Assembly (NCBI GenBank): GCA_029242715.1
Contig: JAQWTL010000028.1
Location: forward strand, 1 to 64,000
DNA from: Phycisphaerales bacterium
Lineage (GTDB): Bacteria > Planctomycetota > Phycisphaerae > Phycisphaerales > SM1A02
Length of the DNA: 64,000 nucleotides
Reading direction: 5' to 3'
Shown in pieces: positions 2,915-54,089 of this stretch; the first letter of the stretch is position 1; every line of letters starts with the position of its first letter. A model generated the notes under the pieces. It worked only from the letters and a program-made list of their open reading frames with translations. It did not search any database and was not told the origin of the DNA. A program made the position numbers and the translations under genes.

Positions 2915-4789
2915 TTACATCGTGGCGCACTCCATGCCGTAGTGACTCAACAGGATCAGGAGGTCATCCACGTCGACCAGGCCGTCGTCATTGAAGTCGG
3001 CATCAGGATCATCCGAACCCAAGGCGGACAGGACATACAGCACGTCGTCGAAATCGACGAGATAGTCGCCGGTGGCGTCACCTGTGCAGCCGGGGCATGC
3101 ATCCACGACGAGGTTGCCGGCCTTGTCGGTCCAGTCACCATCAATCTGGTCTGGCGCATTGCCACAGACGGTGGTGTAGGACAGAGTGTTGCTGGTCGAA
3201 ACGACACACACGACACCGCCTCCGTACTCCTGGGCCGTGTTGCCCGTGATCATGGATCTGGTGAATGTGGAGTTGCTGACTTGGGAGTAGATCCCGCCCC
3301 CAATGCCGGTCGCCATGTTGCCCGAGATCGTGCAGTAGGTGATCAACTGTTCGGAGGGAAAGCTGCAGAAGTGCAGGAAGATGGCTCCACCAAGGATGGC
3401 TGAATTGTCCGAGATCGAACAGTTGGTCATGGTGGCACTGCTTCGATAGCAGTAGATCCCACCGCCCCGGGTGGAGCTGCCGTTAGTGGATTCCTCAGAG
3501 TAGGACAACTTGTTCCCCGTGATCGAACTGTCGGTGATCGAGATGCTGCTGGACAGGAGGCAGCAGATTCCGCCCCCCTTCGCATTCGGTGCAGGAGAAG
3601 TGTTGCCCGTGATGCTGCATCCGGAGATAGTCACATGGCTGTACGATCCCAGATAGACGCCGCCACCCACGCGTGCGCTGTTACCTTCAATGACGCATCC
3701 GACGATCGTGGCGTTGCTGTTGTTGAAAACCACGCCACCACCACCACCAATATTCCCAGCCGTGTTTCCCGAAATGAAACAGTTGACCAGGGTGGGATTG
3801 TTTGAGAGATACGCGCCCACCCCGCCACCAAAGTGTTCCGAGGTATTGCCGGTGATGATGCAATCGGTAATGAGCGGCGTACCGTACCAACGGCAGAATA
3901 TCCCACCACCGTTGTGGCTGGCCGTGTTGTCAGAGATCGTGCAGCCGGTGATGGTGGGGCTGCTGGTGTTGCAGTAGATGCCGCTGCCGGATTCGGCCGT
4001 GTTGTCCGAAATCGTGCAGTCGGTGATGGCAGGGTTGCTGTTGGGGTCGCAGTAGATTCCGCCGCCGTCGGTGTTGGTCGTGTTGTTCGATATCGTGCAG
4101 TCGGTGATAGTGGGGCTGCTGTTGTTGCAGAAGATTCCGCCGCCGCCGAAGATCGCCATGTTGCCCTCGAACGTGCAGTCCTTGATGGTGGGGCTGCTGT
4201 TGTTGCAGAAGACTCCGCCGCCGTTGTTGGCATCGTTGCCCAAGATCGTGCAGCCGCTGATGGTGGGGCTGCTGTTGTGATCGCAGTAGATCCCGCCGCC
4301 GTCGTAGGCCAAGTTGCCCTCGATCGTGCAGCCGGTGATGGTGGGGTTGCTGTTGGTGTCACAGTAGATCCCGCCGCCGTCGAAGGCCAGGTTGCTCTTG
4401 ATCGTGCACCCGCTGATGGTGGGGCTTGTGTAACTGCAGGAGATACCACCGCCGGCGGATGAGTTCCCCCCAGTAATCAACAGGTCCTTGATCAGCATCT
4501 CGGGGCCTTGTCCACCGCTGATACTGAACACTCGGCCAGCCTGTTGAGCATCTACGGTTGTCGCCAGAGAGCCATCACTGTTGAGTGTGCCTTGGATCGT
4601 GATGGCTTTACCGTCCGGGTCGAGCGTGTTCTCGTAGAAAGTGCCAGCGGCGATCTGGATCAGGTCGCCATCAGATGATGCATCGATGGCATCTTGGATC
4701 GTCGGGTAATCGTCCGGAACATTGATGGTGGCGGCTGAAGTCAGTCCGGCGCAGGCCAGGCACATGAAGAGAGTGGTGATGAGTCGCAT
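2915..4789 (-). CDS. Secreted right-handed beta-helix protein with dockerin-like tail (paralogue A)
   Basis: 624 residues from the ATG at 4789, chosen because GGAAAG sits 6 nt upstream (4796-4801) and the first residues, MRLITTLFMCLACAGLTSAA, form a Sec signal peptide; the frame stays open upstream but lacks such signals. A pectate-lyase-like entry (INVPDDYPTIQDAIDA) leads into about 17 rungs of 22-27 residues, each of the form PTITGCTIxxN...GGGIYC, so two cysteines recur per rung. The helix ends at a CGNAPDQI...DACP cap, followed by two dockerin-type calcium loops (GDATGDYLVDFDDVL and DADFNDDGLVDVDDLL). Such proteins are usually exported carbohydrate-binding or adhesive surface proteins; no catalytic residues were recognised. 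Close paralogue of the gene at 4919. Confidence 0.85.
   Translation of the reverse strand: MRLITTLFMCLACAGLTSAATINVPDDYPTIQDAIDASSDGDLIQIAAGTFYENTLDPDGKAITIQGTLNSDGSLATTVDAQQAGRVFSISGGQGPEMLIKDLLITGGNSSAGGGISCSYTSPTISGCTIKSNLAFDGGGIYCDTNSNPTITGCTIEGNLAYDGGGIYCDHNSSPTISGCTILGNDANNGGGVFCNNSSPTIKDCTFEGNMAIFGGGGIFCNNSSPTITDCTISNNTTNTDGGGIYCDPNSNPAITDCTISDNTAESGSGIYCNTSSPTITGCTISDNTASHNGGGIFCRWYGTPLITDCIITGNTSEHFGGGVGAYLSNNPTLVNCFISGNTAGNIGGGGGVVFNNSNATIVGCVIEGNSARVGGGVYLGSYSHVTISGCSITGNTSPAPNAKGGGICCLLSSSISITDSSITGNKLSYSEESTNGSSTRGGGIYCYRSSATMTNCSISDNSAILGGAIFLHFCSFPSEQLITYCTISGNMATGIGGGIYSQVSNSTFTRSMITGNTAQEYGGGVVCVVSTSNTLSYTTVCGNAPDQIDGDWTDKAGNLVVDACPGCTGDATGDYLVDFDDVLYVLSALGSDDPDADFNDDGLVDVDDLLILLSHYGMECATM
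3900..4460. repeat. Intragenic tandem repeat, period about 75-78 bp
   Basis: DNA of the first rungs of paralogue A repeats every 75-78 bp, for example GTGGGGCTGCTGTTGTTGCAG near 4109 and 4187 with variants near 4262 and 4339. Each unit encodes one beta-helix rung. The DNA-level similarity is higher than between later rungs, which suggests recent unit expansion. Confidence 0.7.
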
Positions 4790-4855
4790 GATTATCTTTC
4801 CAAACTCCCCCCTGTTGGCACGAGAGCAATCAGGGTCATGGGTTGACAAGCAACC
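4777..4855 (-). repeat. 79-bp leader repeat, copy 1 (upstream of paralogue A)
   Basis: Identical base for base to 6628-6706. It covers the last bases upstream, the Shine-Dalgarno GGAAAG, the ATG and the first four codons. Perfect identity of non-coding leader between genes whose helix domains have diverged points to recent copying, gene conversion or selection for common control. Confidence 0.85.
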
Positions 4856-4866
4856 TGCCAGTCCTG

Positions 4867-4905
4867 TCCCCGTGATCCCTGACGGAAAACCGCGGGGATC
4901 TACCG
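4867..4905. repeat. Post-gene spacer repeat, copy 2
   Basis: Partner of the repeat at 2852-2890. It lies just after the stop of paralogue B (4919), between it and the leader of paralogue A. Confidence 0.75.
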
Positions 4906-4918
4906 AGGAAACGTGCGG

Positions 4919-6640
4919 TTACATCGTTCCACACTCCACGCCGTAGTGGCTCAACAGGATCAGGACGTCATCCGCATCGACCAGTCCATCTTCATTGAAG
5001 TCGGCGTCAGGATCATTCGAACCCCAGACTGAAAGAACGTAGAGCACATCGTTGACATTGACGGATCCGTCTCCGGTGGCGTCGCCTGGGCAATATGGGC
5101 ACGCATCTGCGACGGTATTGCCGCCCATATCGATCCAATCTTCATATATCTGATCCGGTGCATTGCCGCAGATGGTGGTTTCAGCAAGGGCAGGACCACC
5201 CGAGAAAGAGTAGATCCCCCCGCCGTATTGGATGGCCGTGTTGCCCGTGACTACACATCCGATGATGGTGGTGGGGTGGTATGGGCAGAAGATCCCAGCG
5301 CCGATACGGGCATCGTTGACTGCAATTGTGCCGCCGATGATGGTGAGATTGCCATAGATGTTGTAGATCCCACCACCGACATCGGCCGTGTTTCCCATGA
5401 CCGTACAGTTGGTGACCGTCATGGGGTCATCGCTGTAGATCCCGCCGCCACCCTCTTGGGCCGTGTTGCCCGAGATCACACAGCCGGTGATAGTGGTCGG
5501 CGACGACCAGCATATGATCCCGCCGCCAGATCCGTCAGCCGTGTTGTTTGTGATCGAGCAGTTGGTGATGGAAGGGTTGCTAAAGAAGCAGGAGATCCCG
5601 CCGCCGAGGTTCGGGGCCGTGTTGCCTGAGATCACACACTCTGTGATGGTGGGGTTGGTGTGTTCGGCACAGTAGATCCCGCCGCCGCTGTAATCAGCCG
5701 AGTTGCTTGTGATCATGCAGCCGGTGATAACAGGGTCGCTGTTGCCACTTGACCATCCGATGCAGTGGATCCCACCACCGACGTTGGCGGTATTGCCCGT
5801 GATCGAGCAGTTGGTTATGGCAGGGCTGCTGCTGGCGAAGGAGATCCCACCGCCGCGTTCGGTGGCCGTGTTGCCCATGATTATGCAGCCGGTGATGGTG
5901 GGGTTGCTGGAGTTGTAATCGCGGCAGTAGATTCCACCGCCGTACAAATCGGACGTGTTACTCAGGATCGTGCAGTCGGCGATGGTGGGGTGGCTGTTTT
6001 CGCCACAGTAGATCCCGCCACCGCGGTCCGAGGACTCGTTGACCCGGATCACGCAGTCGGTGATTGTGGCGTTACTGTTGTAGCAGGAGATCCCACCACC
6101 GCGTTCTAATGACTCGTTGCCCTGGATCACACAATCGGTGATGGTGGGGTTGCAGCGGATACAGTTGATCCCGCCACCGTAGCCTGATGACTCATTGCCC
6201 TGGATCACACAGTCAGTGATGGTGGGGTTGCTTTGGGAGCACAAGATCCCGCCGCCATGATCTTCCCACCAGTCGTAATCCCCATCACCGTTGTAGTCGT
6301 AGTCAACACCAAGGCCATTCGTAATCGTAAACCCCTCGATCACCGTGGCATCAGTCTCACCACTGACGCAGGCAATTCCACGCCGAGCATCCTGACCATC
6401 GATGATCGTCTCCTCCGGTGTACCACTGGCCCGAAGCGTGATGGCCTTGCCCTTCATGTCAACGACATGGCCGTCCTGGGTAGAGGTGTAGGCACCAGGC
6501 GCGACGACGATCTCGTCACCATCACTGGCAGCATCGACCGCCTCCTGGATCGTCGGGTAATCACCCGGGACGTTGATCGTGGCGGCCGAAGCGGTCAGGG
6601 TCAGTGCGAAGCTGGCGATAAGAATGATGATGAGTCGCAT
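4919..6640 (-). CDS. Secreted right-handed beta-helix protein with dockerin-like tail (paralogue B)
   Basis: 573 residues from ATG 6640 (GGAAAG 6 nt upstream, same leader as paralogue A). The signal peptide MRLIIILIASFALTLTASAA is followed by INVPGDYPTIQEAVDA, an early DG.DYNGDGDYDWWEDHGGG insert, about 13 GGGI-type rungs with paired cysteines, the CGNAPDQI...DACP cap, and two dockerin-like calcium loops (GDATGDGSVNVNDVL, DADFNEDGLVDADDVL). The protein should be exported and fold as a calcium-stabilised beta-solenoid. Dockerin modules elsewhere bind cohesins, but none is seen in this window, so the tail may serve another anchoring role. Transcription would run toward paralogue A about 130 bp downstream, so the two may share one mRNA. 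Confidence 0.85.
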   Translation of the reverse strand: MRLIIILIASFALTLTASAATINVPGDYPTIQEAVDAASDGDEIVVAPGAYTSTQDGHVVDMKGKAITLRASGTPEETIIDGQDARRGIACVSGETDATVIEGFTITNGLGVDYDYNGDGDYDWWEDHGGGILCSQSNPTITDCVIQGNESSGYGGGINCIRCNPTITDCVIQGNESLERGGGISCYNSNATITDCVIRVNESSDRGGGIYCGENSHPTIADCTILSNTSDLYGGGIYCRDYNSSNPTITGCIIMGNTATERGGGISFASSSPAITNCSITGNTANVGGGIHCIGWSSGNSDPVITGCMITSNSADYSGGGIYCAEHTNPTITECVISGNTAPNLGGGISCFFSNPSITNCSITNNTADGSGGGIICWSSPTTITGCVISGNTAQEGGGGIYSDDPMTVTNCTVMGNTADVGGGIYNIYGNLTIIGGTIAVNDARIGAGIFCPYHPTTIIGCVVTGNTAIQYGGGIYSFSGGPALAETTICGNAPDQIYEDWIDMGGNTVADACPYCPGDATGDGSVNVNDVLYVLSVWGSNDPDADFNEDGLVDADDVLILLSHYGVECGTM

Positions 6641-6706
6641 GATTATCTTTCCAAACTCCCCCCTGTTGGCACGAGAGCAATCAGGGTCATGGGTTGACAA
6701 GCAACC
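6628..6706 (-). repeat. 79-bp leader repeat, copy 2 (upstream of paralogue B)
   Basis: Identical to 4777-4855; contains the ribosome-binding site and start codon of paralogue B. Similarity stops abruptly at 6706. Confidence 0.85.
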
Positions 6707-6870
6707 CGGCACGCTTCCCCTCCACTTGCCCCTCACGGGTCAAGGCATCAACTGACCACAAAGGTCACAAGTGACCGCTGGGCAGGTGATTGACTTTGGG
6801 AAACATGGGCCAGGAGATCACGCCCGGTCCGGTCAAATGAGAGAGGGGAGAACACATATCAGCAGTCCTT

Positions 6871-44007: not shown

Positions 44008-45009
44008 ATGACAGGTCCAAGAATACTTCCAGCAGATGATGCTTCTATTGCAGAAGCTGCTTCCAAATTATCAAAGGGTGGGGTGGTCGCCTTTCCAACC
44101 GAGACCGTCTATGGACTTGGTGGTTCCAGCATGGATCCTGAGGCACTCGACTCCATCTACCGTCTCAAGGGAAGACGACAGGACAATCCGCTAATCGCCC
44201 ATGTCCTCGATATCGAATCCGCGTGTTCAATCACGACAGGATGGGATGATCGGTGCACATTGCTTGCCGAGGCATGGTGGCCTGGACCACTCACACTCGT
44301 TCTGGGTCGTGCATCGGATGTTCCTGATCAAGCATCAGGAGGTCGCCCGACATTGGCTGTCAGAAGTCCGGAGCACCCGGTCGCTCGTGCACTTCTCAAG
44401 GCATTTGGTGGCCCGGTTTCAGCACCGTCCGCGAACCGCTCTGGTGCCGTTTCGCCAACATGTGCTCAGCATGTCATCGATGACTTTTCAGGTAATCCGG
44501 ATGCAGACGGCTTGATTGTCCTGGACGGCAACCGAAGCCGTGTCGGGATCGAATCCACGGTGCTGGACATGACTCTGGATCCACCCAGAATTCTGCGGCC
44601 AGGTGTCTTGACTGCAGAGGTTCTCCAACCTTTGATCGGGCAGATTGAAACAACGACCATCCGTGAGCAGGACGCCTCTCCAGGAACAACAGACAAGCAC
44701 TATTCACCACAGACACCATGCATGCTTGTGGAAGAACCAGAGCTCGTTGAGCATCTGTCAGGAAACAATCAGAGATGTGTTGTTATCACATCAATTTCTG
44801 GTCGCAGTTCACTGGTCCAACCCCCACACGAATTGATTGTGATGCCAATTGATCCAGTGGGATATGCGGTGGAGCTCTATGAAGCGCTTCGCCGTGCAGA
44901 TGCTGAACGGGCAGATCTGATCCTGATTGAAATTGCCGGCGAAAACGATCCAAACTGGCTGGCTGTTCGTGATCGTCTGATGAGAGCCGCATCCGACCGT
45001 ATCAGTTGA
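44008..45009 (+). CDS. tsaC: Threonylcarbamoyladenylate synthase (Sua5/TsaC family)
   Basis: 333 residues from ATG 44008, the start that fits the family; an in-frame ATG at 43984 would overlap the TolC gene by 20 bp. YrdC domain: GGVVAFPTETVYGLG and RLKGRRQDNPLIAH, SAPSANRSG. The Sua5 C-terminal domain follows SPGTTDKHYSP. It makes threonylcarbamoyl-AMP for t6A37 in tRNA. Follows the TolC gene by 4 bp, so probably cotranscribed. Confidence 0.92.
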   Translation: MTGPRILPADDASIAEAASKLSKGGVVAFPTETVYGLGGSSMDPEALDSIYRLKGRRQDNPLIAHVLDIESACSITTGWDDRCTLLAEAWWPGPLTLVLGRASDVPDQASGGRPTLAVRSPEHPVARALLKAFGGPVSAPSANRSGAVSPTCAQHVIDDFSGNPDADGLIVLDGNRSRVGIESTVLDMTLDPPRILRPGVLTAEVLQPLIGQIETTTIREQDASPGTTDKHYSPQTPCMLVEEPELVEHLSGNNQRCVVITSISGRSSLVQPPHELIVMPIDPVGYAVELYEALRRADAERADLILIEIAGENDPNWLAVRDRLMRAASDRIS

Positions 45010-45013
45010 GCTC

Positions 45014-45031
45014 CAGACCTGATGAGGTCTG
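45014..45031 (+). terminator. Hairpin after tsaC
   Basis: CAGACCT-GATG-AGGTCTG, a perfect 7-bp stem 4 bp after the stop, followed by ATTTC. The T-run is weak, so termination may be partial. Confidence 0.5.
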
Positions 45032-45091
45032 ATTTCAAGTTATCTCAAGATTTCATGTGAGATGCGCGCAGAAGCGTGTTGCTCAGGTCTT

Positions 45092-45155
45092 CTTTGAACA
45101 CGGGCTGCCAGGAAACTCCTGTGGATTCTTTCCGCGTTCAAAGGGACTTCCTGGC
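45092..45155 (+). ncRNA. Structured leader with interleaved inverted repeats
   Basis: CTTTGAAC (45092-45099) pairs with GTTCAAAG (45136-45143), enclosing a small CAGGA/TCCTG hairpin (45109-45121). GCCAGGAA (45107-45114) can instead pair with TTCCTGGC (45148-45155), giving pseudoknot or switch topology. It lies about 30 nt before the ribosome site of the third beta-helix gene. No known riboswitch class recognised. Confidence 0.4.
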
Positions 45156-45186
45156 GGTCTGCGTTTTGGAACCAAAGGAGCCCCAT

Positions 45187-46756
45187 ATGAAGTTCGCGCA
45201 GAGCAATCGCAAGTTCAACATGTCTCACCCTAGCTACACTCGTGTCACACGCGGCAACACTCGAGGTCAAGCCATCTGGTGGTAGTCCCTATACAAACAT
45301 ACAACCTGCACTCAATGCTGCCTCTGTCGGCGACACGATTGTTGTTGATCCAGGTCATTACATAGAGAATCTTGTAGTCAACAAGGACCTCACACTTGTT
45401 TCCGCAAGCCCTGGTATCCCCGTGGTTGTCGATGGTGGTCATGCCGGATCCGTCTTGATCTGTAATGCCAACGTCACGGATGCGACATCAATTACCCACT
45501 TCGAGTTTTTGAATGGAAGATCCTGGAATGGTGCAGGCGCATTGGTTCTGAGTTCAGATCCAGTCTTTGTTGACTGTAGTTTCTATGAAAACACTGCAGA
45601 CAACAATGGCGGTGGTGTCTGGTCATCCGGCGACCCGACATTCATTCACTGTGTGATGTATTCAAACACGGCTCAGAATGAAGGCGGCGGACTATACGCC
45701 ACCCAGGGCGGTGTTGAAGTCATTGAATCAAGATTCGAACTGAATACATCTGCCTTTGGTGGTGGCGCCGTTGTTGATGACGGTCATCTTGAGATCGCTC
45801 AATCAAACCTTTTCGATAATTCATCGACCTGGGGCGGAGGTGGTGTATCTGCCAACCACAACAGCACACTGAAACTCCATGGCACCCTGTTCGATGATAA
45901 TCGTTCAAGTAATGGTGGAAGTTTGTACAGCGTCCAATCTGTTTGCGATGTAAACAACTGCACATTCAGCAATGGTGATGCCTCGAATTGGGGCGGCCAT
46001 CTCATTGGTTACAAATCCGAGCTCAGTTTCGAGAACTCCAGCTTTGAATCAGGTCACGCCGACCTTCGCGGCGGGATGATGCACCTTGTCGACTGCAAGT
46101 ACAACGGACTTGAGAACAGCTTCTTGAACGGGGATTCTCCTGGTGGTGCGATGTTCTGGGCGGAACGAACGATCATGGATATCGATACCTCACTCTTTGA
46201 AGGATCAACTTCCATGGGTGAGCCTCTTGAAATAAATGGACGTGCCATATACATGGCAAATTGCAACATGACTGCTGCTGATACGGAGTTTCGTTCCTTG
46301 GAGACCAATGAACCCAAGGCGAAATCCTTGATCATGCAGTACTTGTCGAGTGCTGATTACACAAGTTGCACATTTGATTCATGTCGTGTTCAACCAGGAC
46401 TCAGCATTGGTGGCTTATCCTTTGCTTCAGCTTCTATCGTAAGAAATCAAAACAGCACATCATCCATGGTGATGTGTCAGGTGACTCACAACAACGCAGG
46501 CGCCTCTGGCGACATCATTGCGAGTTACAACGGGGCTGGCCACTACTTTTACATTGAAGACAGTGAATTGAAGTACAACGGCCCTTTCGCTTCATCTTCA
46601 AGAAAATTATGGAAGCGTCGAAACGCAGTTGTTCGCGGTTATGGCATTAAAAAAGTTGAATTGAAGGACAACATTTTCTGCAGCAATACAATTCCCCACT
46701 GGCGTGGATACATCAAAAACCTTGGTGGTAACGTGCGCAGTAAATCCTGTCCATGA
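45187..46756 (+). CDS. Secreted beta-helix protein with a frameshift in its signal peptide (paralogue C)
   Basis: The helix frame (504 residues from GTG 45242) has no ATG. An ATG at 45187 with AAGGAG 6 nt upstream is out of frame by one base; dropping one A at 45190-45191 gives MSSRRAIASSTCLTLATLV then SHAA, a good Sec signal, running into TLEVKPSGG. So either a one-base sequencing error or a real frameshift is present. The mature part starts like paralogues A and B (YTNIQPALNAASVGD), has GGG-type rungs with fewer cysteines, and ends at the same cap (GGNVRSKSCP) but lacks the dockerin tail. Weak similarity to A and B; function probably surface binding. Confidence 0.75.
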
Positions 46757-46793
46757 AAACCACACCTGTTGTGAAGATCTCAAACATCTATTG

Positions 46794-46825
46794 CCCGGCC
46801 TCGCTTCAAGCGGGGCCGGGTTTTT
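46794..46825. terminator. Rho-independent terminator between convergent genes
   Basis: 12-bp GC-rich stem CCCGGCCTCGCT/AGCGGGGCCGGG (one wobble pair), 3-nt loop, then TTTTT at 46821-46825. It ends the beta-helix gene; the reverse strand lacks a matching T-run. It abuts the stop of the ChaN-like gene. Confidence 0.85.
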
Positions 46826-47778
46826 CATGGATTGTCGGATCGTGTGAAGACGATGATGTCCGCCTGCTGAATATCCTTGCCAGCTTCCAGTTTCTCGTCG
46901 CGTTCCGTTTCCAGGCTCACCACAAGGATCGACTTGTCCGGGACAAGTCGACGGATCTCCTGGACCGTCCCACCGTTGTAGTCACTGTGGAATCGACCAA
47001 CCAGGAGAATGACTGGAACGGCATCGGTTTGAGCAGCATTTGCAACAGAATCGGCCATCGTTGCATCCCAGATCTGCTGTGCACGGTAGAAGGGTTCTAT
47101 ATAAGACAGGTCAACCTCTACATCTTCTGATTGATCATCGTCAGATGGCTGCATGATCTCGAAGAAGCGTTCCTTGTATACCCCGTCGATTGTTCCTGGA
47201 GGAACGGCTACCAATCCGGAACGATCAAGTGGGAGTGATTCCAGAGCCTCCCAGTTTTCTCTTCGGGCAAGTCGCACATAACGGCGAGGCGCATTGGCGG
47301 CGATGATCTGTCCATCATTTTCAAGAGCCGCATCAATGACAGGTTGATACCAGGCGACCCAGCTTCCTTCACCTGCCCAGGCGGTAGAGGAGGTGGCTTT
47401 GGCAAACGTTTCAGTGTCAATGATTCCATCGACGTGATCATCGATGAGGATCTGCTCATCACGTTCAAGCATCTCCAGCGCCAAGGTGCCACCATTGCGA
47501 CGTCCCATGACATCCTCGACAACAGCGAGCTGTACAGCATGCCCGACTGCATCATCATGCTCTTCACCAAGGATGATGATGTCCATGGATGAAGCGTGTT
47601 GGATGAAGTCATCCCAGCTCACTGGTACACCAGGATCTCCCCGAGTGATGGTCAATTCACTTCGGACATCCACATCGGATGCCGTCACCGCCTGTTTGCT
47701 AGCCTGGCATCCAGGGGCAAGAGTGGTGGCCAGCAACATCAGACAGGCGATCAGAAGGGATGGAAAGTGGGGTGACAT
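46825..47778 (-). CDS. ChaN-like lipoprotein
   Basis: 317 residues. Signal with lipobox APGC (residues 21-24). The body matches the ChaN/Tiki fold: IIILGEEHDDAVGHAVQLAV (metal or heme-side ExxH), LALEMLERDEQ, AANAPRRYVRLARR and VILLVGRFHSDY. ChaN of Campylobacter is an iron-regulated heme-binding outer membrane lipoprotein; related domains are metalloproteases. No heme uptake genes lie nearby. Confidence 0.85.
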   Translation of the reverse strand: MSPHFPSLLIACLMLLATTLAPGCQASKQAVTASDVDVRSELTITRGDPGVPVSWDDFIQHASSMDIIILGEEHDDAVGHAVQLAVVEDVMGRRNGGTLALEMLERDEQILIDDHVDGIIDTETFAKATSSTAWAGEGSWVAWYQPVIDAALENDGQIIAANAPRRYVRLARRENWEALESLPLDRSGLVAVPPGTIDGVYKERFFEIMQPSDDDQSEDVEVDLSYIEPFYRAQQIWDATMADSVANAAQTDAVPVILLVGRFHSDYNGGTVQEIRRLVPDKSILVVSLETERDEKLEAGKDIQQADIIVFTRSDNP

Positions 47779-47821
47779 GGGGTTCTTGGGGTCCTGAAGG
47801 TGATCATGGGGGCTTGGCCCA

Positions 47822-47850
47822 TTGTCCCGGCCAAGCGGGGATAGTACGAT
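47822..47850 (+). promoter_or_regulatory. Promoter of the TPR/alpha-CTD gene
   Basis: TTGTCC (47822-47827), 17-bp spacer, TACGAT (47845-47850): the best housekeeping-type promoter seen in the window, about 43 nt before the ATG. Confidence 0.6.
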
Positions 47851-47893
47851 ACGTGATCGTCAACAGAGACCAGCAGACCCGGAGCGAACATCA

Positions 47894-48823
47894 ATGTCGC
47901 AGGATACTTCCAACGCACTCGACACCGTCATCGGTGGTGGCGCCGTCAATACTGTGGATGCCACCCAGGCCCTTCAGGATGCCAAACAGCATGAGCAGGA
48001 CGGTAACCGCCTGGCTGCTATCGAGGCCCTGCGGTCTATTGCATCCAGCAATGATGAAGCAGCTTTCCGTCTCGCTTATCACCTGGACCTTGTTGGCGAA
48101 GAAGACGAAGCAGTGTCGCTTTATGAAGATCTTGTCCGGCGACAAACCCGACCTTCAATCAACGTAATGCTCAACCTTGCTGTCATCCTTGAGGATCGAG
48201 GAGACATCAACGGTGCAGAACGTTGTCTCAGGCAGATCCTTGATACGGAACCCAATCATGAACGAGCACGCCTCTTCATGATGGATGTTCGTTCATCCAA
48301 GGACATGTACTACGACGAAGAACAGGCCCGGGACATGGCCAAGCGCAATGCCCTTCTGGATACACCTGTTACAGACTTCGAGTTGTCAGTTCGAGCACGC
48401 AACTGCTTGAAGAAGATGCAGATCAGAACACTTGGCGACCTGTTGAAGGTCAGTGAATCAGAATTGCTCAGCTACAAGAACTTCGGGGAAACATCTCTGG
48501 TTGAGATCAACCAGATGCTCACCTCGAAGGGGCTTCGCCTTGGACAGAGTCTGCAGTCCCACTACAGCCGAATGCGTCAAGAGATCTATGACGAGATCAA
48601 GGGCAAGGCATCCGAGGCTGTTCTCAACAAGCCCATTACGCAATTGGATTTCTCAGTTCGAGCCCGCAAGGCTCTGCAACTCCTGGGGGTTCACACGGTC
48701 GGCGACCTGGCAACCAGGACCGAAGCGGAGCTGATGGGCGTGAAGAACTTTGGTGCCACCAGCCTCGATGAGGTCAATGATGTGCTCCAGAGCTACAACC
48801 TCGACCTCCGGACACTCGAATAG
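47894..48823 (+). CDS. TPR protein with two RNA polymerase alpha C-terminal domains
   Basis: 309 residues from ATG 47894 (GGAG 9 nt upstream). Residues about 22-145 form TPR-like helices (LAAIEALRSIA, AVILEDRGDINGAERCLRQI). Two alpha-CTD modules follow at about 158-218 (LSVRARNCLKKMQIRTLGDL, NFGETSLVEI) and 248-308 (FSVRARKALQLLGVHTVGDL, NFGATSLDEV), each with the helix-hairpin-helix core that binds UP-element DNA and regulators. The alpha N-terminal assembly domain is absent, so it cannot replace RpoA. It may compete with or bridge alpha-CTDs at promoters. Conserved in planctomycetes; function not known. Confidence 0.88.
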   Translation: MSQDTSNALDTVIGGGAVNTVDATQALQDAKQHEQDGNRLAAIEALRSIASSNDEAAFRLAYHLDLVGEEDEAVSLYEDLVRRQTRPSINVMLNLAVILEDRGDINGAERCLRQILDTEPNHERARLFMMDVRSSKDMYYDEEQARDMAKRNALLDTPVTDFELSVRARNCLKKMQIRTLGDLLKVSESELLSYKNFGETSLVEINQMLTSKGLRLGQSLQSHYSRMRQEIYDEIKGKASEAVLNKPITQLDFSVRARKALQLLGVHTVGDLATRTEAELMGVKNFGATSLDEVNDVLQSYNLDLRTLE

Positions 48824-48930
48824 GTCACGGCTTCCACATCTGATCCACATGCTCAATACCTCTCACAGAGAAGAGGGGTACCGTGGTGCGCATTGCAGTC
48901 CACGCGACTGATTCGCCGAAGTGAATTGAC

Positions 48931-50229
48931 ATGGGTTGTTTCCACTGGATCCACATCTGTTGCCTCTTGCTGCTCATGGCACCCATCTCGTGCCGTGAGC
49001 ATGATGTACCGATAACTCCTGTTGAGGGTGCTCGAGAAAGCACGGCTCAGGCGGAACGTGTTCGTCTTCCGATTCCCACTGAAGAACCAATTGTTCGTGT
49101 TCGTATTCGCCGTGTAATCGGTTCACTTGAACCGGTTGAATTCGCACACGGTGGACAGGAAGTCACGATCAGTGATGAGACCGGCAACACGATTACAAGA
49201 CAGGGCCCTTTGACTGTTCGACGCGATCGGAAGGGCTGGATTGTTCGTGCATCGGATACCTGGAAGCTCCCACGGTCCATCCAATCGGCTTCCTGGATCA
49301 GCCTCATGTCCAGAGGGGGGTTGGAATTGACGGATGACAGTGGTGAAACGCGGCAGTATGCCGGTTCCGTTCGCTGTGTTCATCTTCCTGATCAAAGGGA
49401 CACGACCTGGGATCTGATCGAGCATGTCGGAATCGAGTCCTACCTTCCAGGTGTACTCAGCGGAGAGCTGTTTGGACACTGGGGCAAACAGTGCCAGGCT
49501 GCCCAGGCAATTGCAGCCAGGAGCTTCGTCACCATGGAGTGCATCCTCAGGAAAGGCAGGCGTTGGGATGTTGTTGATACACCTGGTTCACAGGTTTATC
49601 TGGGTGTCGTCGGTGACAACGTGTCCCATGAAGCCTGTGAAATGACCAGAGGCATGGTGCTCACATGGGGTCCTGAACTGGTTCCGGGTTATTTCAGCAG
49701 TTGCTGTGGTGGCAGAGCGGCCACCGGATCAGAAGCCATTGGACCCAACCCCATCAATTCAGTGCCACCCTTGAAAGGCCACATGGGGGATGGTTATTGC
49801 CAGGAGGCACCCCTCTACAAATGGAAACGGGAATGCAGTGGTGCGGATCTCGGAGCAGCCATTCGTCGGTCGGCTCCGAAGGGTGGGCCTGCCAAATCAA
49901 TCGGAACGGTTGATCGAATCATCATCATTGGTCGCAACCGCCATGGTCGAGGTATCAGGCTTCAGGTACGGGACACTGCAGGACGAAAGATCGAGATGAC
50001 CGCAGAAGATCTTCTTCAATCATCAAGATCACTTCCCGAGGGTCCTCTGTTTTCAGGCTGGGTAGAAGGAAGAAGGAAAGGCGGCCGCCTTCATCTTTCT
50101 GGACACGGCTATGGTCATGGTGCCGGGTTGTGCCAATACGGCACCGCTGCAATGGACAGCAAGGGCATGTCGTTCTGGAAGATGATCGAGTACTACTACC
50201 CCGGCGCTGAGATCAAGAGGGCCTGGTAG
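48931..50229 (+). CDS. SpoIID/LytB-domain protein
   Basis: 432 residues with a signal peptide (MGCFHWIHICCLLLLMAP). A beta-rich part (about 50-165) precedes the SpoIID domain: VGIESYLPGVLSGELFGHW, KQCQAAQAIAARSFVTM, YFSSCCGGRAATGSEAI, and HLSGHGYGHGAGLCQYG. SpoIID of Bacillus is a lytic transglycosylase that cuts glycan strands lacking stem peptides; the Glu of SGEL corresponds to its catalytic residue. Suggests peptidoglycan remodelling, consistent with the view that planctomycetes have a wall. Confidence 0.88.
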   Translation: MGCFHWIHICCLLLLMAPISCREHDVPITPVEGARESTAQAERVRLPIPTEEPIVRVRIRRVIGSLEPVEFAHGGQEVTISDETGNTITRQGPLTVRRDRKGWIVRASDTWKLPRSIQSASWISLMSRGGLELTDDSGETRQYAGSVRCVHLPDQRDTTWDLIEHVGIESYLPGVLSGELFGHWGKQCQAAQAIAARSFVTMECILRKGRRWDVVDTPGSQVYLGVVGDNVSHEACEMTRGMVLTWGPELVPGYFSSCCGGRAATGSEAIGPNPINSVPPLKGHMGDGYCQEAPLYKWKRECSGADLGAAIRRSAPKGGPAKSIGTVDRIIIIGRNRHGRGIRLQVRDTAGRKIEMTAEDLLQSSRSLPEGPLFSGWVEGRRKGGRLHLSGHGYGHGAGLCQYGTAAMDSKGMSFWKMIEYYYPGAEIKRAW

Positions 50230-50261
50230 GGGACCCGTGAGTTGATTGTTCACGGGCCCCC
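50229..50261. terminator. Long hairpin between convergent genes
   Basis: GGGGACCCGTGA and TCACGGGCCCCC pair with one A-C mismatch around a 9-nt loop. It starts with the last base of the SpoIID stop codon. No T-run, so the terminator call is tentative. Confidence 0.5.
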
Positions 50262-50293
50262 GGAGTCGACAACATGTCCAGGCTTGCTGCGGA

Positions 50294-51178
50294 TCAGCGA
50301 TCCATGCTGGTATTCACCACCCACTGCTCAGGTGGAAGAAGGTCGGCAAATGGATCTTCTTCGCCACCATTGTCTCCAGTGGAATGACGGGCTCGCGTTT
50401 CATATTCATCATGCATGTTCCGGCCGGCAAGGGCTTGCAAAGTACCCTCCTGAACAGCGCGAATTTCAGCGAGTTTCGACTCAACCTGATCAAGATTGGT
50501 AACCCTGCCAAACCGATCAAAGTCACGCAGAGTTGCCTTTTGACCTTCAGTCAGTTCAATCAGGCGATCATTACGTTCAATCATGTCTATCTGGCGATCC
50601 ATCTGCCAGAGCTGATCACTGTATTGCGTGTACTCGGATTCCAAACGCGTGAGGATGCCACTGAGACGATCGGATTGTTCTGAAAGCATCTTCAGATGAT
50701 GATTGTTGGAAGTGATGCGATCCTGGTATGAGGTACGGATCGTCTTCATACGACGTCCGTCTTCTCGTGCTTCTTCAAGATCAAAGTGGCGGCCATTGAC
50801 TACGAAGTTGACCTGCTTGATGCCGCTGGTCTGTGAACGAACAGCAGAAGCAAGTTCCTGAAGATCCTGGTTTGTCAGTTGAACTACTCTTTCAGCGATT
50901 TCGGTATCACTTTGGAATTGTTCGACTTGACACTCCACGGCGGCGAGCTCTCCACGAACCTCCGCAATCTGATCGGGATACTGCTCCGCCAGTGATCGAA
51001 GCTGGTGACGCAGAGCTGCAGGATCATCAAGGTGCTCATCGATGAAATCGACGGCATGTTGTCGAGCAGTTCCAAATGCAGCGGCAACTCGATTAGGTCC
51101 TACAAGGACCACCAGTCCCGCGGTCACGATGGCAGCAATTAAGCTCCATCTAACAATAAATTTAATCAACCTGTTCAT
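50294..51178 (-). CDS. Single-pass membrane protein with long coiled coil
   Basis: 294 residues from ATG 51178 (AAGGAG 5 nt upstream). One helix (residues about 10-30, WSLIAAIVTAGLVVLVG), then a mostly helical, charged domain with heptad-like stretches (IAEVRGELAAVECQVEQF; LSEQSDRLSGILTRLESEY), and an acidic tail (NGGEEDPFADLL). No enzyme motif. Divergent from the ECF sigma gene about 195 bp away. Family not recognised. Confidence 0.75.
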   Translation of the reverse strand: MNRLIKFIVRWSLIAAIVTAGLVVLVGPNRVAAAFGTARQHAVDFIDEHLDDPAALRHQLRSLAEQYPDQIAEVRGELAAVECQVEQFQSDTEIAERVVQLTNQDLQELASAVRSQTSGIKQVNFVVNGRHFDLEEAREDGRRMKTIRTSYQDRITSNNHHLKMLSEQSDRLSGILTRLESEYTQYSDQLWQMDRQIDMIERNDRLIELTEGQKATLRDFDRFGRVTNLDQVESKLAEIRAVQEGTLQALAGRNMHDEYETRARHSTGDNGGEEDPFADLLPPEQWVVNTSMDR

Positions 51179-51372
51179 GATTGCTCCTTGGGGGGAATCT
51201 CCCCTATACGGGCATCCAAAGCCCTCTGGAGTAGTTGTTGGGGATCCGGACCACCATCTTTCACGGATTCCATGGCAATGGCCTCCAATCACCGGAATAC
51301 CATTGAAGGAGGCTTTTTCTTGGTTTGTGAAATCTGCCGTCAGGTTTTCCCAAGAACTCTTTCGGAGCGGTC

Positions 51373-52110
51373 ATGCATCAATTGACGACGACATTTGTCC
51401 GCAGGCTGCGGAATCGAGACGAGGCTGCCTGGTTTGAACTCTGGCAAGTCTTCGGACCGGTACTACGCGCTCAGTTGAGCCGTTGGGGTGGTGGTCGCAT
51501 TGGCGTCGAGACGATTCGTGATCTTTCACAAGAAACACTGGCAAACCTCTCTCGCTCGATTGAACGGTTTGATCCGGAACGAGGCGTACGATTTTCCACA
51601 TGGCTGTTAGCAATCGCTCGCCATGTCCTCGGGGATGAACTTGATCGCCGTGGGGCTGCCAAGCGAGGCTCAGGCCGGCGAGCCTTGTCCCTGGGCGATC
51701 GTGATCCTGTTTCTGATTTACAGGTTGATGCTGCGTATGAACGACGAATTTTCGAGGCCAAGGTACATGCTGCAATACGGCGTACCGAGGCTGATTCGAT
51801 ATTCGTTGCCTTTCAGGTGTACCGAATGCGTGTCTTTGATGGTCAAACAGGACGTTTGGTCGCCGAACAGTTGGGTATGAGTGAAGCCACGATCAGCAGG
51901 CAATTGCAATCGGTTCGCATCTCTTTACGCAAAGCATTGGAAAACGTAGTAGCTCAATGGAGTTTCACACCGGAAGAGCATTCGGAAATATCAGGAGCTG
52001 GATTGGCTGGTGACGACAACCTGTTCGATGAAGCTCTTGCAGAAATCTATCATTCACATGAAGCCAGGCGACGTGCTGAAGATGCTGAATCAAGATCGGC
52101 AGGTGTTTGA
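51373..52110 (+). CDS. ECF-type RNA polymerase sigma factor
   Basis: 245 residues; GGAG 5 nt before the ATG. Region 2: WFELWQVFGPVLRAQL and TIRDLSQETLANLSRSI...FSTWLLAIARHVL; region 4: VYRMRVFDGQTGRLVAEQL then GMSEATISRQLQSVRISLRK, a helix-turn-helix for the -35. A C-terminal tail of about 45 residues extends past region 4. The stop and the kinase start overlap (TGATG), so sigma and kinase are made together and the kinase may control the sigma factor, as proposed for planctomycete ECF-kinase pairs. No anti-sigma gene is present. Confidence 0.9.
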   Translation: MHQLTTTFVRRLRNRDEAAWFELWQVFGPVLRAQLSRWGGGRIGVETIRDLSQETLANLSRSIERFDPERGVRFSTWLLAIARHVLGDELDRRGAAKRGSGRRALSLGDRDPVSDLQVDAAYERRIFEAKVHAAIRRTEADSIFVAFQVYRMRVFDGQTGRLVAEQLGMSEATISRQLQSVRISLRKALENVVAQWSFTPEEHSEISGAGLAGDDNLFDEALAEIYHSHEARRRAEDAESRSAGV

Positions 52111-54089
52111 TGTTGACCACTTTCCTGGGTTTGATAGTGACCATGATTGCTGTTGGCATTTTCGTGCTGGGAGTCATCTTTATTCTCGTGCCGATCATCA
52201 AGGGTGGCTTTGCCTTTGGTTCGATGCTCGGGCGACTGATCCGCCACATTTGCCGATGGCTCTTTGGATCAATCTCGGATGTCGTTCGCATCATTGGCCA
52301 GCTGTTTGGCATGGTTGTCTTGATTCCACTGCTTCTTGGTTCAGTGGTTCTGGGCCGATGGGCTGCAGCACAACAGGCCTGGTCAGTCATTCGAGGCAAT
52401 GGATCAGGTGTTTGCCAGGCTCTCTACCGTCTTCTGGTCCGGAGGCCGATGTCACTGCTTGGTATTGGCGTCGCGCTCGATGAAGTCGAGCGAAGTGTTC
52501 ACGATGCAGCCATCCTGACGAACACGGTTCCAGGAACCCAATTCGACGGCTACAGGATCATTGATACGCTGACATCCGGTGGCTCTGGAGCCACGCTCTT
52601 TGTTGCTGAGCCACATCCAACACGGCGTCGACGATTGGCGGGACAACCATCACGTGTCGTGATCAAGTGCTTTGATCTGGACGCCGGGTCAAAGTTGCCA
52701 CAGATGATGCGCGAATCACGTTCACTGGATGCAGCCCGCCGATTGGGACTTGTCCTGGAACATGACATGGATCCCTCACGGTTCTGGTATGTGATGCCCT
52801 GGATTCCAGGTGCTCACCTCGGTGAGGTCGTTCGTGAATTGCACGAGGGGGGACAAGGCCTGGATCCTACAGGTCTCTCAAGGGCCATCAATCTCACAAT
52901 TGATCTGTTGCAGATACTGCGTCGCTATCACAAACAAGGTCTTTGGCACAAGGATGTCAAACCAGAAAACATCATTGTCAACGATTCAGGTGCGCATCTC
53001 GTAGATCTGGGACTTGTCACACCATTGGCATCTGCCATGACACTGACGACACACGGAACAGAATATTTTCGAGATCCAGAGCTTGTTCGCCAGGCCCTCC
53101 GCGGTGTAAAAGTCTCGGAAGTCGATGGAACTCGATTTGATGTCTACGCGGCAGGCGCGGTTCTCTATTACATCCTTGAAAACACGTTCCCCGCTCATGG
53201 AGGCTTGAGTCGATTTGATCAACCTTCGCCAGAGGCTGCCAAATGGATTGTGCATCGTGCCATGTCGGATTATGAACAGCGGTATGCCGACGTTGGTGTG
53301 ATGCTCGCGGACGTTGCCGTACTTGCCAAGGCTTCGGATCCATGGTCCGTTCGTCCTGCAGATCTTCCTTCCATGAAAGGTGTGGAGACAACGGAAACAA
53401 CCGAAAATGTACCACCACCACCACCAGCACCCGTTCGGCATCACCACCTGCCACGTGTCGCGCCACCACCTCCTCGCATCCCAGAAACTCGAAGATCTGC
53501 AAGCGGTCAATTCAGCTGGATTGCCGCAGCTGCCAGCTTCGTACTTGGAGTTGGAATCTTGATGATGATTGGTCAAGTCGTCCTGACATCCAATGATGGC
53601 AGCATTCTGAACAATGGCGGTCCATATGTTGCAGCGGGCAAAGCCTGGTCACCCAATCCCGGAAGCTATGGTGAAAACCTGGCGTTTGCAGAGCCCATAG
53701 AGGTTCCTACGCCAGCGTCATCTCAACCGGGCTTGTGTCTTTTGATCGTCGATCATGCTTCACGTGACAAAGAACCCATTGCTGAGACAATCAATGTGTT
53801 TCGAGATCAATTGTCCCGGGCGGGATGGTCCCATCGCATAGATGTCGAAGCGGAGATTGCGATACGAAGCGTAATGCCACCGCGCCCGGAACCTGGCCGA
53901 GTTCCAGTGCACCCAGCTGTTCGAGAAGCCTTGGAGAATCGTGATCTGGATGCTGCCGTGTTGCTGATCGAAAGCGCAGGTGAAAATGGCGGTGTTGATG
54001 TGATCATGCTCACCCACGAATGGCAGGCCCGTTGGGAGATTCCCCAACAGATTCAACAGTCGCTTGGAAGCGATACGGATCAGGAGTAG
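52110..54089 (+). CDS. Membrane Ser/Thr kinase coupled to the ECF sigma gene
   Basis: 659 residues from ATG 52110. Two N-terminal hydrophobic segments (about 4-32 and 62-83), a kinase domain at about 145-420, a Pro-rich linker (VPPPPPAP), a membrane helix near 470-492 (WIAAAASFVLGVGILMMIG), and an outer C-terminal domain. Kinase details: weak Gly loop SGGSGATLF, lysine in VVIKCF, catalytic loop HKDVKPEN (about 280-287) instead of HRD, and DLG in place of DFG (about 299). The needed Lys, Asp and Asn are kept, so activity is plausible. Overlaps the convergent next gene by 10 bp. Confidence 0.87.
   Translation: MLTTFLGLIVTMIAVGIFVLGVIFILVPIIKGGFAFGSMLGRLIRHICRWLFGSISDVVRIIGQLFGMVVLIPLLLGSVVLGRWAAAQQAWSVIRGNGSGVCQALYRLLVRRPMSLLGIGVALDEVERSVHDAAILTNTVPGTQFDGYRIIDTLTSGGSGATLFVAEPHPTRRRRLAGQPSRVVIKCFDLDAGSKLPQMMRESRSLDAARRLGLVLEHDMDPSRFWYVMPWIPGAHLGEVVRELHEGGQGLDPTGLSRAINLTIDLLQILRRYHKQGLWHKDVKPENIIVNDSGAHLVDLGLVTPLASAMTLTTHGTEYFRDPELVRQALRGVKVSEVDGTRFDVYAAGAVLYYILENTFPAHGGLSRFDQPSPEAAKWIVHRAMSDYEQRYADVGVMLADVAVLAKASDPWSVRPADLPSMKGVETTETTENVPPPPPAPVRHHHLPRVAPPPPRIPETRRSASGQFSWIAAAASFVLGVGILMMIGQVVLTSNDGSILNNGGPYVAAGKAWSPNPGSYGENLAFAEPIEVPTPASSQPGLCLLIVDHASRDKEPIAETINVFRDQLSRAGWSHRIDVEAEIAIRSVMPPRPEPGRVPVHPAVREALENRDLDAAVLLIESAGENGGVDVIMLTHEWQARWEIPQQIQQSLGSDTDQE

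Follow-up and report, generated by a model that had tools for sequence, protein, structure and literature searches.

What does a protein do that carries two alpha-CTDs of the RNA polymerase type on a TPR scaffold and has no alpha-NTD? This question is raised by a gene at 47894..48823 on the forward strand of a 64,000-nucleotide stretch of DNA from a Phycisphaerales bacterium; the whole stretch is called the window here. The open reading frame encodes 309 amino acids, starts with the ATG at 47894, and its stop codon ends at 48823. A Shine-Dalgarno-like GGAG was read in the sequence at 47881..47884 on the same strand, 9 nt before the ATG. This start agrees with the relatives of the protein, as matches begin at residues 1-10 in the 67 out of 80 that were used in the upstream test below. 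An alternative, longer frame starting with the TTG at 47822 coincides with the -35 box of a putative promoter that is described below.

Architecture and distribution

When the whole protein was compared with Pfam, the family PF03118 (RNA_pol_A_CTD) matched in two stretches with 142.5 bits (E 3.3e-42). Scanned singly, module 1 (approximately residues 150-216, 48341..48541, forward strand) reached 77.6 bits and module 2 (approximately residues 239-305, 48608..48808, forward strand) 71.2 bits against a cut-off of 23.8, with positions 6-66 of the 67 positions of the model covered. Scores above the curated cut-off and a predicted alpha-CTD fold place both modules in this family. The TPR scaffold lies in front of them (approximately residues 18-136, 47945..48301, forward strand) and belongs to the TPR families according to the matches to TPR_14 (29.0 bits, cut-off 23.5) and TPR_19 (27.4 bits, cut-off 25). 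A match to the alpha-NTD family was absent from the 309-aa protein in the Pfam comparison. The stand-alone double alpha-CTD on a TPR without alpha-NTD, as it had been described in the first-pass annotation, was thus borne out by Pfam and by the single-module scans.

An AlphaFold2 model was built from an alignment of 68 sequences, the window protein and 67 relatives. With a mean pLDDT of 83, the model predicted a TPR region folded as a helical array (helices between residues 18 and 136), the first CTD, a linker with a helix at residues 221-236 (48554..48601, forward strand) and the second CTD; the relative placing of the domains is left without prediction because of the pTM of 0.45. In Foldseek, the model matched TPR arrays and alpha-CTDs, among the latter the alpha-CTD of E. 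coli (8y5t, TMt 0.94, rmsd 0.6) and that of Caulobacter on A/T-rich DNA (9zum, TMt 0.84, rmsd 0.8).

Since it has no alpha-NTD, the protein cannot take the place of an alpha subunit in the polymerase. The possibility that the gene encodes the alpha subunit of this genome was ruled out by a complete rpoA on contig C30 with its own CTD; beyond the two modules, this CTD is all that PF03118 matches in the genome. Membership in RpoA was rejected as well, because RpoA models stayed at or below 134 bits against cut-offs of 227.8 to 523, with their best stretches in the CTD part. Compensation for an rpoA without CTD is not the explanation either, since the host RpoA and the 53 RpoAs compared with it all have the CTD, with Arg265 in 54/54. 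PglW, a serine/threonine kinase of BREX, shares with the protein an alpha-CTD-like segment (E 9.2e-14; E 1.5e-14), and membership in PglW was rejected at 50.1 bits against a cut-off of 990, only the CTD part being matched.

An origin as a plasmid or phage gene was also considered and discarded: in all of the 55 plasmid and 7 phage records with a match, it extends over no more than 80% of the query. The three plasmid matches that were inspected carry the annotation of alpha subunits, with 335-354 aa, and two of the three genes lie within clusters of ribosomal-protein genes. Relatives of the alpha-CTD were found on 10 viral contigs, all of which match only the CTD part of the query. Two of these contigs were inspected and encode, from the first start of the frame, short stand-alone alpha-CTD proteins of 143 aa (L239:2773-3204) and 132 aa (L246:2857-3255). 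Like the window protein they have an alpha-CTD without alpha-NTD, but they consist of one domain in 132-143 aa and have no TPR.

Tandem alpha-CTDs outside RpoA also occur in two other planctomycete proteins, in which, unlike in the window protein, no TPR was found. One of them has 686 aa with two alpha-CTDs, sigma-70 region 4 and HARE-HTH (L236:1583-3643), the other 795 aa with three alpha-CTDs, sigma-70 region 4 and HARE-HTH (L235:1674-4061). Among the matches listed for 99 genomes, a full-length match to the 686-aa protein came only from its own genome, and a partial one from the genome of the 795-aa protein. The two proteins show that planctomycetes reuse the alpha-CTD together with other parts of the transcription machinery. 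The component domains of the window protein are catalogued, and their arrangement can be expected to be visible in domain databases. No description of the TPR-alphaCTD-alphaCTD protein was found among the papers listed in a literature search that mostly covered sources outside subscription journals, and the passages found by term in a Verrucomicrobium essential-genome paper (PMC12283558), a Tuwongella proteome (PMC8567305) and a PVC signature paper (PMC3444138) do not mention it.

In the sample of Planctomycetota the gene is near-universal. At E <= 1e-3, 197 of the 199 genomes have a match, and at E <= 1e-30 still 187 (counted by eye in the table); the best E among the remaining 12 genomes, 10 of which are under 90% complete, was 1.7e-22. 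Among the matches listed, 150 were used, and all of them span the TPR and both CTDs except for one that covers residues 29-218 (G102). Of 583 relatives in named genomes, the best 80 come from records titled Phycisphaerae/Phycisphaerales or Planctomycetota, apart from a few with titles of other groups. Records titled Limnohabitans (L071), Cyanobacteria (L072) and Dehalococcoidia (L081) carry the gene; the title Limnohabitans is probably wrong. Most relatives outside the order of the window have open frames of about 400-600 aa, compared with 339 here, so the TPR part is usually longer there.

DNA-contact residues and constraint on the modules

The residues were compared in 54 genomes, the window genome and 53 others. 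Forty of these were chosen by hand from a set of 59, leaning to strong matches, and 13 were added in which both genes were listed; the other 6 of the 59 were left out, as one of the two genes was unlisted or fragmentary. The 59 genomes are evidently drawn from the 199-genome phylum sample again, and their counts are therefore not independent of it.

The equivalents of Arg265 are R167 in module 1 (48392-48394) and R256 in module 2 (48659-48661). Of the two E. coli alpha residues singled out in the first-pass annotation, Arg265 and Asn268, module 1 of the window protein has both, whereas module 2 has the arginine only and a Lys at position 268. Across the 54 genomes, module 1 has Arg265 in 54, Asn268 in 49, Cys269 in 52, Asn294 in 54, Gly296 in 54, Ser299 in 53 and Glu302 in 54. 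D259 was found in 49 and E261 in 50 of them, position 259 being Asp or Glu in 54/54. Thr stands at position 298 of module 1 in 51 genomes and of RpoA in 49 of the same 54; as it is common to module 1 and the RpoA of this phylum, the change from the Lys of E. coli is the phylum's own. Apart from Thr298, the set of 265-type DNA-contact residues in module 1 is complete. One family within the order of the window (L006, L008-L010) has Thr-Ala at positions 268-269 of module 1 where Asn-Cys is found elsewhere, so the Asn-Cys rule of this module has exceptions.

Module 2 is mostly without Asn268. Position 268 is Lys in 26 and Arg in 19 genomes, and thus basic in 45/54, while Arg265 is kept in 53, Asn294 in 50, Gly296 in 52, Ser299 in 48 and Glu302 in 53 of the 54. 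Loss of the DNA-contact residues from both modules, which the first-pass annotation had named as a refutation of its reading, is thus not seen in these sequences, Arg265 being present in 54/54 and 53/54. Position 267 is mostly basic in module 1 (Arg 49, Lys 4) and in module 2 (Arg 37, Lys 5), whereas in RpoA it is mostly Ser (24) or Ala (10), each of 54. In 41 genomes, module 1 was slightly more basic than the CTD of RpoA, with a mean net charge of +1.7 compared with -0.1. The window protein therefore has in common with the RpoA CTD (PF03118) the fold, the DNA-contact residues of module 1, the sigma-facing acids and the Thr298 of the RpoA of the phylum; it differs from RpoA in the two CTD copies on a TPR protein without alpha-NTD and in the Lys or Arg at position 268 of module 2.

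Module 1 is better conserved than the CTD of RpoA itself, which is an unusual constraint. The mean pairwise identity in the 54 genomes was 0.675 for module 1, 0.52 for the RpoA CTD and 0.552 for the RpoA NTD; it was 0.441 for module 2 and 0.38 for the TPR, the least conserved part. Module 1 exceeded the RpoA CTD in 92% of the 1431 genome pairs, which are non-independent, the contrast being made within the same genomes, and in 48 of the 62 columns; the reverse held in 11 columns. In the first 40 genomes plus the host, module 1 reached 0.69 and the RpoA CTD 0.54, and module 1 was higher in 90% of 820 pairs. The 13 check genomes plus the host gave the same order, with 0.626 for module 1 and 0.462 for the RpoA CTD. 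Compared with the alpha-CTD of E. coli, the mean identity in the first 41 genomes was 0.505 for module 1 and 0.471 for the planctomycete RpoA CTDs.

The largest conservation gains in module 1 were at positions 256, 259, 261, 267, 273, 278-280, 285, 288, 292, 303 and 310. Five of these 13 positions fall into a set of 12 out of 62 columns that correspond to protein-contact positions of E. coli alpha (the 261, 273 and 287 determinants), P 0.064. Inside this set the mean excess conservation was 0.27, and outside it 0.13. At this P value, the excess cannot be said to lie largely on protein-contact faces. The excess conservation leans, weakly, towards a constant protein partner but does not demonstrate one, be it sigma or an activator. 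No particular partner is indicated by the TPR, which is conserved least of all the parts.

A quick tree speaks against a recent origin of the modules, be it by copying of the rpoA tail or by duplication within the gene: module 1 forms one group with a support of 87, and 2 changes are required for each of module 2 and RpoA. The tree is weak evidence on the origin because it rests on 68 aligned columns and 80 of its 120 inner branches are unresolved. The identities within the same genome, in the first 41 genomes, were 0.444 between the two modules, and 0.438 and 0.418 between the modules and RpoA, so that each module is as distant from the other as from RpoA. In the simplest reading of these comparisons, the fusion would be older than the radiation of the phylum.

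Promoter and neighbouring genes

The first-pass annotation had credited the gene with the clearest housekeeping promoter in the window. The putative promoter TTGTCC-17-TACGAT (47822..47850, forward strand) has 8 of 12 consensus matches and is surpassed by 52 sites in the window with scores of 9 or 10, and therefore is not the clearest one; a rule-based promoter scan of 45000-51500 listed none at 47822-47850. A sigma-70-type promoter upstream of the gene is likely on sequence grounds, since promoter-like sequence recurs in the relatives. For the steady expression suggested in the first-pass annotation, this recurrence would be indirect support. The upstream test comprised 68 regions, the window and 67 of the 80 loci, the other 13 loci being without upstream sequence or without a match starting near residue 1; as the regions come from related genomes, they are not independent. 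In these regions the mean best promoter consensus score was 6.9, compared with 3.7 (sd 0.34) in 40 shuffles, and TTG-N20/21-TANNNT was present in 26/68, whereas 100 shuffles gave 0.86 on average and 3 at most. The pattern TTGTCC-N16-18-TANNNT, which was chosen after seeing these loci, was found in 6/68 regions (the window and L034, L035, L037, L042 and L045) compared with a mean of 0.02 in shuffles, and all five relatives have a 17-nt spacer.

Downstream, 107 nt after the stop codon, the window has a gene for a SpoIID-domain protein on the same strand (48931..50229, PF08486), of which a relative was found within the flank in 34 of the 80 loci. Further on, at 51373-54089, a gene for a sigma-70/ECF-type sigma factor overlaps a protein kinase gene; in the 80 loci, relatives of the sigma factor were found near the alpha-CTD gene in 10 and relatives of the kinase in 7. 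Elsewhere in the window, at 2915-6736 and 45242-46756, there are several long open reading frames with many 'GGG(I/V)' repeats, perhaps encoding right-handed repeat surface proteins.

Neighbourhoods were compared in 34 hand-chosen genomes and the window, and a crude ORF picker kept the gene in 26 of them plus the window. A gene of about 195 aa occurred in 17 of the 34 neighbourhoods, and in 13 of the 26 it was located directly 3' of the alpha-CTD gene. Its product is RuvA by sequence, and the coordinates of RuvA_N matches agree with this. Among 111 comparable genomes, which had both the alpha-CTD gene and RuvA_N among the matches listed, a RuvA_N match on the same strand followed downstream at a distance of no more than 700 nt in 79 genomes and 37 of 50 families, 49 of these 79 matches being within 60 nt, match to match. 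The class of the window is absent from the 111, as RuvA_N matches there were not strong enough for the listing. In one of the 79 genomes (G138) ruvC stands between the alpha-CTD gene and ruvA, and in a member of the same family (G182) ruvC follows directly 3'. In some genomes the cluster continues with ruvB, spoIID, tgt, yajC and secDF, as seen by eye and, for SpoIID, by clustering with the Pfam-tested gene of the window. The arrangement in the window looks like a remnant of the ruvA cluster.

This neighbourhood raises the possibility that the protein is a DNA-recombination or repair accessory, in which helix-hairpin-helix-like modules would recognise DNA, perhaps branched, and the TPR would recruit RuvA/RuvB or another repair protein. 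It is above all the frequent position of ruvA just downstream, outside the class of the window, that makes a recombination role a rival worth keeping, and HHH_5 gave a weak match (E 0.0011). At 19.9 bits against a cut-off of 27, however, this match is below the cut-off, and membership in a RuvA-like or HHH_5 family was rejected. We consider the repair role unlikely, as the kept residues, including the sigma-facing acids, are specific to the alpha-CTD. In several genomes the cluster runs on to spoIID, tgt, yajC and secDF, genes of mixed functions, so that a place in the same operon does not imply a common function. Moreover, 32 of the 111 genomes have ruvA at a greater distance or in another place, the alpha-CTD gene is present without a RuvA_N match in, for example, G152 and G167 (both 99% complete), and in the window it is SpoIID, not RuvA, that follows.

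A proposed transcription cofactor and its alternatives

The best explanation for the protein, which we hold tentatively and at somewhat less than an even chance, is a DNA-binding, alpha-CTD-based transcription cofactor of the planctomycete core. It is the best single reading because module 1 keeps its contact residues and its acidic face and because the gene is near-universal, and a stand-alone alpha-CTD cofactor acting at promoters would explain why these specific residues are kept. We also counted in its favour the two other planctomycete proteins in which alpha-CTDs occur together with a sigma-70 region 4 domain. Counted against it were the position of ruvA in 79/111 genomes, which points to recombination, the scarcity of Asn268 in module 2 and the Thr-Ala family in module 1. 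The co-factor role proposed in the first-pass annotation is therefore upheld in part, by module 1 and the spread of the gene, and weakened by two findings that the annotation did not anticipate, the scarcity of Asn268 in module 2 and the ruvA that is usually downstream outside the class of the window.

As a cofactor, the protein would act as follows. Module 1, a near-canonical alpha-CTD, would bind A/T-rich promoter DNA in the minor groove, and its conserved acidic face would contact sigma region 4 or another partner; in E. coli alpha this face touches sigma. Module 2 may serve as a second, altered DNA-binding module in which the position of Asn268 has turned basic. The TPR scaffold would tether the pair of modules to a protein, either polymerase or a regulator, and in this way extra alpha-CTDs would be supplied in trans, beside the two of the polymerase.

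An alternative is a DNA-bridging or occupancy protein that competes with the RpoA CTDs for A/T-rich upstream DNA or helps to compact the nucleoid, without contacting polymerase. In each of the two modules, Arg265, Asn294, Gly296 and Glu302 are present in at least 50/54 genomes and Ser299 in at least 48/54, and both the basic residue at position 268 of module 2 and the higher net charge of module 1 (+1.7 against -0.1) would fit such a role. Sigma-facing acids would be needless for bridging, yet position 259 is Asp or Glu in every module 1 compared, and we regard this alternative as quite unlikely. A protein-interaction scaffold, in which the alpha-CTD folds have ceased to bind DNA and serve only as adaptors for regulators whose usual docking site is RNA polymerase alpha, would agree with the weak lean of the excess conservation towards the protein-contact positions of E. 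coli alpha (P 0.064) and with the loss of Asn268 from most module 2 sequences, but is improbable in view of Arg265 (54/54 in module 1, 53/54 in module 2) and of most other DNA-contact positions being kept.

The transcription cofactor can also be drawn more boldly, as an accessory transcription factor, essentially universal in Planctomycetota, that brings two extra alpha-CTDs in trans on a TPR and touches sigma at most housekeeping promoters; promoter recognition in the phylum would then be unlike that of model bacteria, and the operon with ruvAB may couple transcription to Holliday-junction processing. This version is possible but doubtful.

In nearly every planctomycete genome sampled there is thus an alpha-CTD that is more tightly conserved than the polymerase's own. 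If it is active at promoters, the UP-element rules of E. coli may not hold throughout the phylum; should it work together with RuvAB, the alpha-CTD fold would have a second job in DNA repair.
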